In this document: positions 38,569-42,150 of the stretch, one piece after another | How positions within the stretch are numbered: the stretch's first letter is position 1 | How the letters are laid out: each line of letters opens with the position of its first letter | Source: Acidobacteriota bacterium | GTDB taxonomy: Bacteria > Acidobacteriota > Terriglobia > Acidiferrales > UBA7541 | DNA: 64,000 nucleotides | Direction: 5' to 3' | NCBI GenBank assembly: GCA_013286165.1 | Contig: JABDGF010000007.1 | Coordinates: 1-64,000, forward strand | The notes under the pieces: generated by a model | The model's input: only the letters and a program-made list of their open reading frames with translations | Databases searched by the model: none | What the model was told of the DNA's origin: nothing | Position numbers and translations under genes: made by a program

Positions 38569-38641
38569 GTGCGCACCTGGCGCTTCCCTATTCCGGCCCT
38601 CGTGCGGTATAACGGTGTCCCCCGCACCATAGGAGACGTGC

Positions 38642-38794
38642 ATGCCAGCCAAGAAAGCCGCGAAGAAGGCCACGAAGAAGCCGTCCGCCAAGATGCACAG
38701 GGGCAAATCCCTAAACTCGGTGAAGCCGTTGACCGAAACCATCACCTTCGAGTACGGGGGACTGAAACAGGCCTACACGCCTCAGAAGCCGTAA
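38642..38794 (+). CDS. Lys-rich microprotein with Hcp-like C-terminal strand, 50 residues
   Basis: ATG 38642 has AGGAG six bases upstream. Residues 1-17 are an Ala/Lys tail (MPAKKAAKKATKKPSAK) like those of HU or histone H1-type proteins. HRGKSLNSVKPL follows (19-30). Residues 30-49 (LTETITFEYGGLKQAYTPQK) resemble the C-terminal strand of Hcp, the type VI secretion tube protein. A paralogue lies at 39813. There is no signal peptide. No function can be assigned. Confidence 0.78.
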   Translation: MPAKKAAKKATKKPSAKMHRGKSLNSVKPLTETITFEYGGLKQAYTPQKP

Positions 38795-39331
38795 ACCGCT
38801 AAAGCACAACACCCTAAGTCCGGCGCACGCGCTCGATTGGCTGGTCCCCATCGCACGGTGGGAGTCGGTGCGTCCGCGGACGGGCACGGCAGCGCCGTGA
38901 CCAACAAGACCGCACCGCTACGGTTGTAAGGGGCACGCACGACGAGGCAACCCACACTACGCCTCAAGTCACTCGATGCCGACCAACCCTATAGAGTGCG
39001 GCGGGTGTTAACGCCGCTGAGTTCGCGAACATGCGATTCACGCTGATGAATGCCAATGGCATGACGAACGTGTATGCCGGCAATTTATGGTAGCTCACGC
39101 AAATCGATCATGCGCCGAGCGACCACAGCGCCACGCACAAAGACGCGGCGTATCAGCGTCCACGGGCCTTCGGCCTTGCATCAATTTGGATTTGTGTGGA
39201 GCGCGGGAAAGCGGCGGTAGGACCCGCCGCACTCCGATAGGCGTTTTCGCCAAGTAGAAATAGCGCACGATGGTGTCGCGGTGAGAAGGCCAAAGCGCCG
39301 TGCCGTCGCCAGCAAAACCGGCGACTACGCG
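38795..39331. other. 537-base region without recognised genes
   Basis: Only short open frames without ribosome binding sites occur here. A small palindrome with CGGCG arms lies near 39002-39020 (GCGGCGGGTGTTAACGCCGC). Between the two microprotein genes this space may once have held genes, but nothing recognisable remains. Confidence 0.45.
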
Positions 39332-39661
39332 TCAGAGCCCAGCAGCAGTGAGGTCTTCCACCACCACCCAACCCTTCTCGATGCCGGCCCAAACGTAGTT
39401 GCGAGCCTCGGCGAGTGTGTTGTGGTTCGCAACAATGTCGTTGGCCTTCGCACGCATGTGCGCCAGCAGGCCCTCTTGCGACTTCGCGGGATCGCCCTCG
39501 CGTTCGTCGCGAAGCTCGTCATTGTGATAGGCCAGCACGTACTTCGTGTCGCAGTTTTCGTGGTTGCAGTGGAGATGCTCCTCCACATAACCCTCTGGCC
39601 GCGCCGCGCCCGTCCCTGAACTGCTCGACTGTGAACTAGCATTGCGAAGTGTGGCGGGCAT
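39332..39661 (-). CDS. small hypothetical protein with Cys/His motif
   Basis: The protein has 109 residues. ATG 39661 has ACGGAGG upstream. The N-terminal 20 residues are Ser-rich. The core has EEHLHCNHENCDTKYVLAYH (27-46), whose Cys and His residues could bind zinc, then a helix (EGLLAHMRAKANDIVANHNT) and WAGIEKGWVVVEDL at the end. No family is recognised. It is divergent from the microprotein gene at 39813. Confidence 0.7.
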   Translation of the reverse strand: MPATLRNASSQSSSSGTGAARPEGYVEEHLHCNHENCDTKYVLAYHNDELRDEREGDPAKSQEGLLAHMRAKANDIVANHNTLAEARNYVWAGIEKGWVVVEDLTAAGL

Positions 39662-39812
39662 CGGGCCTCCGTAAAATCGTAGCGCGCAGCGGAGAACGGC
39701 CCGCCACGCTTCTCTTCGAACACTAACATAGGTCCAACCCGTAAGGTTCCGACCGAATTCATCTTATCTGTGTGAGCGCGCTGCTGTTCACGTCCGCCCA
39801 GAGGAGAACCTC

Positions 39813-39968
39813 ATGCCCGCAAAGTCCGCCGCAAAGAAATCCGCGAAGAAATCCACCGCGAAGGTGCACAAAGGCAAATCGCTAGGCGCGGTGAAGCCAC
39901 TGAAGGACGGCCCAGGCGAGTCGTTCGGCATGAACTACGGCAACATCAAGATCGACTACAAGCCGTAA
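39813..39968 (+). CDS. Lys-rich microprotein, paralogue of the gene at 38642, 51 residues
   Basis: ATG 39813 has GAGGAG six bases upstream. By hand alignment, 21 of the first 30 residues are identical to the protein at 38642 (MPAK..AKK..KK..AK.H.GKSL..VKPL). The tail (GESFGMNYGNIKIDYKP, 35-51) keeps the aromatic-Gly-x-Ile-x-x-x-Tyr-x-Pro pattern. The conservation of both ends, with a separate good ribosome binding site for each copy, supports real translation. Function is unknown. Confidence 0.8.
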   Translation: MPAKSAAKKSAKKSTAKVHKGKSLGAVKPLKDGPGESFGMNYGNIKIDYKP

Positions 39969-40767: not shown

Positions 40768-42150
40768 ATGCCTATCAAGACGATCATCGAACCGTTTCGC
40801 ATCAAAAGCGTTGAGCCGATCCGGCAGACCACGCGCGAGGAGCGCGAAAAGATTTTGCGCGCGGCGGGCCACAACCTATTCCTCGTGCGATCGCAGGACA
40901 TTTTGATTGACCTGCTCACCGATTCGGGCACCGGCGCGATGTCCAGCGAGCAGTGGGCAGCGATCATGCGCGGCGACGAATCGTACGCGGGCTCGCCGAG
41001 CTTCGAACGGTTCCGCGATTCCGTGCAGGCCATCATGGGATTCAAGCACGTGATCCCAACGCACCAAGGCCGCGCCGCGGAGCGGATTTTATTCAGCGTG
41101 ATGTGCGTCGCGGGCGACGTGGTGCCCAACAACACGCACTTCGACACTACGCGCGCGAACTGCGAATTCGTCGGCGCGCAGGCGCTCGACCTGCCGTGCG
41201 CGGAGGGCAGGCAGCCGTCCGTTGCAGCGCCGTTCAAGGGCAACATGGATGTGCAGGCACTCGAACGCACCATCGCCGAGCACGGCGCAAAGCGCATTCC
41301 GCTCGTGATGCTCACGGTCACAAATAATTCCGGCGGCGGCCAGCCCGTTTCGATGGCCAATATTCGCGCGGTGCGCGCGGTGTGCGACAAGCACCGCATC
41401 CCGCTTTACATCGACGCGTGCCGCTACGCCGAGAACGCCTATTTCATCAAGCAGCGCGAGCCGGGCTACGAGAAGGCCACGCCGCGCGAAATTGCCAAGG
41501 AAATGTTCAGCTACGCCGACGGCTGCACGATGTCCGCCAAAAAAGACGGCATGGTGAATATCGGCGGCTTCCTGTGCACCAATGACGACACTCTTGCGCA
41601 GCGCGAAAAGGATCTGCTGATCCTCACCGAAGGTTTTCCCACGTACGGCGGCCTCGCAGGGCGCGACCTCGATGCGCTCGCCGTCGGCATGAACGAAGCG
41701 CTCGAGGAAGATTATTTGCACTACCGGATCGTTTCCACCGCGTACCTCGGCGACCACATCTCCGAAGCCGGCGTCCCGATCGTGGAGCCGCCCGGCGGAC
41801 ACGCAATTTACATTGATGCTCGCGCGTTTCTGCCGCACATTCCGCCGGCGCAATTTCCCGGCGTCGCGCTCGCGGCCGAACTTTTCCTCGAAGGCGGCAT
41901 CCGTTCCGTGGAAATCGGCACCCTGATGTTTGGAAAGCGCGATAAGGACGGGACGGAGCACGTCGGCCCGATGGATTTGCTGCGCCTCGCGATTCCCCGC
42001 CGCGTGTACACGCAAAGCCACATCGATTACTGCGTCGAGGTGATTCTCGAAGTGTGGCGCCGCCGCAACGAGATTCGTGGCCTCAAGCTCACGCACCAGG
42101 CCCCGTACCTGCGCCACTTCACCGCGCGCCTCGAACCGTTCGGCACATAA
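40768..42150 (+). CDS. tnaA: tryptophanase (beta-eliminating PLP lyase)
   Basis: The protein has 460 residues, full length for the tryptophanase/tyrosine phenol-lyase family. The PLP lysine is Lys259 in TMSAKKDG. Specificity residues favour tryptophan: Asp126 in THFDTTR (Thr in tyrosine phenol-lyase), Ile383 in SVEIG (Arg in the tyrosine enzyme) and His450 in YLRHFTARL (Phe in the tyrosine enzyme). NIGGFL after the lysine is more like the tyrosine enzyme, so the backbone is mixed. The reaction would be L-Trp to indole, pyruvate and ammonia. There is no tnaC-like leader or tnaB permease beside it. AAAGGA lies a little far upstream of ATG 40768. Confidence 0.9.
   Translation: MPIKTIIEPFRIKSVEPIRQTTREEREKILRAAGHNLFLVRSQDILIDLLTDSGTGAMSSEQWAAIMRGDESYAGSPSFERFRDSVQAIMGFKHVIPTHQGRAAERILFSVMCVAGDVVPNNTHFDTTRANCEFVGAQALDLPCAEGRQPSVAAPFKGNMDVQALERTIAEHGAKRIPLVMLTVTNNSGGGQPVSMANIRAVRAVCDKHRIPLYIDACRYAENAYFIKQREPGYEKATPREIAKEMFSYADGCTMSAKKDGMVNIGGFLCTNDDTLAQREKDLLILTEGFPTYGGLAGRDLDALAVGMNEALEEDYLHYRIVSTAYLGDHISEAGVPIVEPPGGHAIYIDARAFLPHIPPAQFPGVALAAELFLEGGIRSVEIGTLMFGKRDKDGTEHVGPMDLLRLAIPRRVYTQSHIDYCVEVILEVWRRRNEIRGLKLTHQAPYLRHFTARLEPFGT

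Follow-up and report, generated by a model that had tools for sequence, protein, structure and literature searches.

Daptide and epipeptide systems rely on RRE-S2P maturation proteins (MpaP, NF041824; YydH/LiaK, NF058609) that combine an RRE with an intramembrane HExxH protease and adjoin short precursor-like ORFs with a conserved leader and a variable end. MpaP, an RRE-dependent intramembrane peptidase, removes the daptide leaders (PMC10036551). A different pairing occurs in Chlamydia, where the SET enzyme cpnSET methylates the small Lys-rich, H1-like protein Hc1 (PMC3980110). The Acidobacteria genes analyzed here share with the daptide and epipeptide systems both the combination of RRE and protease and the adjoining ORFs, but their RRE/site-2 protease (S2P) protein is fused to an HlyD domain and shares its operon with genes for GAF-HlyD and HlyD proteins; unlike in daptide loci, no daptide enzymes were seen in the operons read, and the precursors are Lys-rich. 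As in Chlamydia, a SET gene is at some loci paired with a small Lys-rich protein, but the bacteria are free living and the candidate substrate is a 21- to 50-aa peptide with a defined motif. Some of these peptides also carry tail segments homologous to strands and loops of Hcp, the tube protein of type VI secretion systems (T6SS; PF05638). The tails differ from Hcp in holding 6 to 30 residues of a ∼150-residue domain, from which no barrel is possible, and in occurring in genomes without a T6SS sheath gene.

Two such genes of a soil Acidobacterium, P1 and P2, lie in the window, i.e., the whole 64,000-nucleotide stretch under analysis, with the following features (ORF boundaries as in the sequence-only reading of this DNA; Shine-Dalgarno [SD] motifs read from the sequence):

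38631..38635, forward strand: Shine-Dalgarno AGGAG of P1
38642..38794, forward strand: P1 ORF, 50 aa
38642..38731, forward strand: P1 head, MPAKKAAKKATKKPSAKMHRGKSLNSVKPL, a conserved Lys-rich leader-like module
38732..38794, forward strand: P1 tail, TETITFEYGGLKQAYTPQKP, plus stop; piece of the Hcp C-terminal beta-strand (9.4 bits, Hcp HMM)
39802..39806, forward strand: Shine-Dalgarno AGGAG of P2
39813..39968, forward strand: P2 ORF, 51 aa
39813..39902, forward strand: P2 head, MPAKSAAKKSAKKSTAKVHKGKSLGAVKPL, 21/30 residues identical to the P1 head
39903..39968, forward strand: P2 tail, KDGPGESFGMNYGNIKIDYKP, plus stop; piece of the Hcp C-terminal beta-strand (11.4 bits, Hcp HMM)

Direct counting of the identical head residues and BLASTP of the full-length pair (27/51 identity; E = 1e-8) bear out the paralogy proposed in the sequence-only reading, and its mention of good ribosome binding sites agrees with the AGGAG motif ahead of each ORF. 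A scan for Lys-rich ORFs of 18 to 80 aa with an ATG start and an SD motif returned exactly P1 and P2 in the 64-kb window; 100 kb of control loci gave no such ORF, and a further 128 kb gave family members only. Neither sigma-70 promoters nor forward-strand terminators were detected at P1 and P2, and each peptide taken singly had no significant match in Pfam, NCBIfam, or PDB. The neighborhood contains a 109-aa ORF without a family match on the antisense strand between P1 and P2 (window positions 39332 to 39661, reverse strand) and, just downstream of P2, a tryptophanase/tyrosine phenol-lyase-like PLP enzyme (40768 to 42150, forward strand; PRK13238, 702.9 bits). P1 and P2 are real, translated-looking genes, very probably translated, and members of a new peptide family.

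Profile searches of whole genomes, started from P1 and P2, delineated some 60 microproteins of 21 to 77 aa that form one family confined to the lineage, curated to 57 distinct sequences. All follow one layout, a conserved Lys-rich head and then a variable tail, which is that of a precursor-like short ORF with a conserved leader and a variable C terminus. The head pattern comprises Lys-rich sequence and [KR][GAS]K[KS]LxxxK[PT]L, with the end reading KGKKLxxVKPL or, more loosely, [KR]GK[KS]LxxVKPL. Further homologues in Acidobacteriota, a search for which had been suggested as a check, are present in 17/89 genomes of the taxonomic family and 11/20 of the genus; beyond the taxonomic family, the 399 genomes of the class yielded marginal matches only. 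Named relatives retrieved from genome contigs with a degenerate DNA pattern are Acidobacteria metagenome-assembled genomes (e.g., palsa_312, palsa_348, palsa_134, and palsa_289), while a scan of genome contigs with tblastn confirmation and the viral contigs gave no relatives. An SD core precedes 56/57 family members versus 9% of random ATGs, a count that is slightly biased because starts were partly picked for SD. Heads are under purifying selection: two sets of orthologues gave pN/pS values of 0.13 and 0.15, at loci where the tails are hypervariable, and the P1-P2 comparison gave 0.32 for the head and about 0.86 for the tail, on few sites. The synonymous/nonsynonymous ratio, proposed earlier as a test, thus reveals constraint on the heads. 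Some sister tails consist of tandem repeats of TLKPSF, SLRGVSTLRGIN, or KTLKPLKSLK (L207:645-794, L206:3834-3968, and L210:4829-4969), a sequence arrangement suggesting several short products per precursor.

Flanks of the head-only members are conserved. They encode SET-domain proteins and a sigma-54 response regulator, along with a ∼715- to 719-aa protein that combines PqqD-like, M50, and HlyD domains. The N terminus of this large protein is an RRE (PqqD-like) and its C terminus an HlyD domain, and its site-2 protease has the motif HEFGH; the copy in the genome of the window (G000) is located at G000:C82:1162-3315, next to a sister peptide. It matches the daptide metalloprotease profile NF041824 with an E value of 1.5e-53 (2.9e-53 for the G000 copy), and also the YydH/LiaK profile. 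The NF041824 score, 182 bits, is below the curated cutoff of 300, and the peptides do not end in Thr (P1 and P2 end in Pro, and sister ends vary), which sets the system apart from daptides. HEFGH or HEFAH is present in 22/22 orthologues. In the AlphaFold model, residues 19 to 105 adopt an RRE topology, and structure comparison identified leader-bound lasso RREs (6jx3/5v1u/5v1v; Z of 10) and PqqD (5sxy; Z of 8.5) as the best solved matches; the N-terminal domain is accordingly modeled as an RRE fold. A conserved three-gene arrangement of GAF-HlyD, HlyD, and RRE-S2P-HlyD (L221:4837-10366, L224:8363-13993, and L222:5273-10811), adjoining a sigma-54 response regulator, is apparently an undescribed peptide export/maturation operon. 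An ABC exporter within it was considered and dropped, none being seen in the annotated loci, and the operons read likewise showed no enzyme dedicated to modification.

Orthologues of the RRE/S2P/HlyD protein (47 to 100% identity) occur in 11/11 genus genomes with peptides and 0/9 without them; the association, computed without phylogenetic correction, is significant in the genus (Fisher, 6e-6) and family-wide (2e-8). Lys-rich, SD-led microproteins lie near 20/22 orthologue loci versus 1/8 loci of distant paralogues, and include diverged ones with tandem TLK-type repeats, e.g., MQKKGIALKKGKKLSGAKTLKGVSSLRGVSTLRGINTLRSINTTRATKA. P1 and P2 do not share this adjacency, as the gene resides on another contig (C82); their link to it therefore rests on the shared head sequence and on genome-wide co-occurrence.

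SET genes were found in 15/89 genomes of the taxonomic family. The motif NH[SC]CxPN marks 16 parsed loci, 11 of which hold a peptide inside their 1.5-kb flanks, mostly directly upstream on the same strand; the peptide-SET association is 1e-5 without phylogenetic correction. These SET-domain proteins of free-living Acidobacteria (L168 to L190) have a Cys-rich, post-SET-like tail and are usually adjoined by a tiny Lys-rich ORF, and one genome (G069) holds four copies. None was found in G000, which is 55% complete.

The best-supported reading of the head is a leader-type role, and we give an about even chance to P1 and P2 being Lys-rich leader-type peptides of a lineage-specific family that serves the RRE/S2P/HlyD system. 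The head, proposed as the conserved functional part of the family, would be a recognition segment bound by the RRE of the membrane protein, S2P would trim the peptide, and HlyD-type adaptors would hand it out, by analogy with MpaP. In some relatives, the SET enzyme may methylate head lysines, by analogy with cpnSET on Hc1. The tail would serve as cargo that differs between peptides; in P1, P2, and at least 10 of their sisters, this part is a piece of the Hcp tube protein. Among the three roles previously suggested for P1 and P2, a natural product-like precursor thus fits best with the co-occurrence and colocalization of RRE/S2P/HlyD and SET genes, and an Hcp plug or cargo is not supported. Several observations speak against leader-type peptides: many sister tails, of 3 to 9 residues, are short for a RiPP core; P1 and P2 adjoin neither a SET gene nor the RRE/S2P/HlyD gene; the members with Hcp tails stand as orphans at loci unrelated to one another; three genomes with peptides (G024, G032, and G054) have no detected RRE/S2P/HlyD gene; the NF041824 score stays below its cutoff; and neither an ABC transporter nor a dedicated modifying enzyme turned up in the operons read. 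The lack of a detected SET gene in G000 and in 9/17 peptide-bearing genomes overall also counts against this reading.

The sequence-only reading had likened the tails of P1 and P2 to the C-terminal strand of Hcp and had noted a Lys/Ala module joined to it. Both features are borne out, the strand by an Hcp HMM built from 51 Hcps of the class (153 positions), each tail being compared with 1,000 shuffles. P1 aligned to model positions 119 to 137 and P2 to 116 to 134, with 0/1,000 shuffles as good in either case, so that the profile match proposed as a check is better than random; in sister peptides, it extends beyond the C-terminal strand. At least 10 of these carry pieces drawn from different parts of Hcp, and the following scored above all 1,000 shuffles: G065:C84 (28.2 bits, model 108-137), G000:C6a (26.8 bits, 4-24), G000:C6b (14.8 bits, 48-69), G032:C432 (12.8 bits, 48-67), G000:C48 (10.6 bits, 37-58), G069:C9a (9.8 bits, 7-21), G069:C9b (6.9 bits, 50-65), G069:C6 (4.6 bits, 53-65), G053:C147 (3.8 bits, 39-50), and G053:C76b (1.3 bits, 9-14). 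The end of G000:C6c, TGWDLVQNKTSA, matches the extreme Hcp C terminus (0/20,000 shuffles). A blind scan of 3,905 ORF C termini returned only family microproteins or true Hcp ends above 4.4 bits, the score of the best unrelated ORF end. PF05638 recognizes G000:C6a above its cutoff (27.1 versus 23.5 bits), while P1 and P2 alone fall short of significance. PDB matches of two sister tails were mostly Hcp entries (8yun, 5xeu, 5xhh, EvpC 3eaa, 9qpe, and PA0085 1y12), the best being 7fcf, labeled "Fimbrial protein." By the shuffles, the ORF ends, and the Pfam match of the sister peptide, the tails are homologous to Hcp in sequence; those of P1 and P2 cover only the above positions of a complete beta-barrel of about 130 to 160 residues. 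G000 encodes six Hcp-tailed peptides, including P1 and P2, and one head-only member. The Hcp-tailed loci showed no synteny between genomes among the matches listed. The idea that the pieces jointly cover Hcp and rebuild it in trans was rejected, model positions 70 to 107 never being seen, although a gap of that length occurs in 6% of random placements and is weak evidence.

The Hcp pieces are most simply explained by an ancient fusion of head and Hcp, later duplicated and trimmed. Carried further, the head would originally have extended an Hcp-like protein at its N terminus; after gene duplication, in-frame deletions would have removed the Hcp domain, leaving only the head functional, whatever its role, and the Hcp tails as neutral footprints. 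This explanation, which we consider possible but rather doubtful, accommodates the origin of the pieces in different Hcp parts, always in frame after the head, the direct joining of head and Hcp N terminus in G000:C6a, the contrast between constrained heads and near-neutral P1/P2 tails, and the fast turnover of tails at orthologous loci. Yet searches of the class, with the head in 399 genomes and with PF05638 in 250, turned up no intact, full-length head-Hcp fusion, no out-of-frame Hcp relics lie around the peptide genes, and several pieces keep 10 to 28 bits of Hcp signal and similar motif ends (YxPQ and ASPxL). The near-neutral comparison of the P1 and P2 tails leans to a vestige, whereas the Hcp signal that persists and the resemblance of the end points favor a degree of constraint on the tail, which may thus be either cargo or the vestige of a lost head-Hcp fusion. 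An intracellular function, in which histone-tail- or H1-like peptides putatively bind nucleic acid and are tuned by SET enzymes next to a coincidental export gene, appears unlikely; the Lys/Ala-rich composition of the heads, the SET genes adjoining sister peptides, and the chlamydial precedent favor it, but the exact co-occurrence with the RRE/S2P/HlyD gene in the genus plus adjacency, the peptide-bearing genomes without a detected SET gene, and a KGKKLxxVKPL motif more specific than an H1 tail do not.

A role linked to T6SS was weighed against the distribution of its genes. The sheath gene TssC/VipB was found in 0/20 genus genomes, with G000 only 55% complete, and in 5/89 genomes of the taxonomic family; these five hold canonical Hcp and no peptides by head profile, and no peptide-bearing genome has the gene. 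Full-length canonical Hcp was not found in the genus, whose few Hcp-like proteins are exported and diverged; Hcp-like proteins with apparent signal peptides (L036, L037, L044, L045, and L034) occur also in sheathless genus genomes. The suggestion that the peptides are T6SS accessories (Hcp plugs, cargo, or chaperones), made earlier from their Hcp-strand tails, is therefore already contradicted and highly improbable; within the limits set by incomplete genomes, the data lend no support to a function in a T6SS of the producers' own. Producers without a detected T6SS could instead target that of others: exported tails, being Hcp segments, would enter Hcp barrels as beta-strands and disrupt the assembly of tubes in T6SS-armed neighbors. 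The tracking of head and export/maturation gene would suit this scenario, but the Hcp-tailed members sit outside the export locus, and we regard it as quite unlikely. Very unlikely, too, is the composite in which RRE/S2P/HlyD leaders methylated by SET carry T6SS-tube strands as exchangeable cargo with which T6SS-less producers jam their neighbors' tubes.

Our best reading remains that the family consists of Lys-rich leader-type peptides of an undescribed RRE/S2P/HlyD system, with P1 and P2 as orphan paralogues that bear cargo or a vestige from Hcp as their tails. The peptide family is previously undescribed, and Lys-rich microproteins of free-living bacteria, RRE/site-2-protease/HlyD genes, and SET genes were not linked in the literature searched. 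Together, they provide a peptide maturation system that is open to direct testing, and SET enzymes gain a candidate native substrate in bacteria. The Hcp-derived tails show that fragments of a secretion tube protein can survive at the ends of microproteins even where the lineage lacks the secretion apparatus itself, a finding relevant to the origin of new sequence in small proteins.
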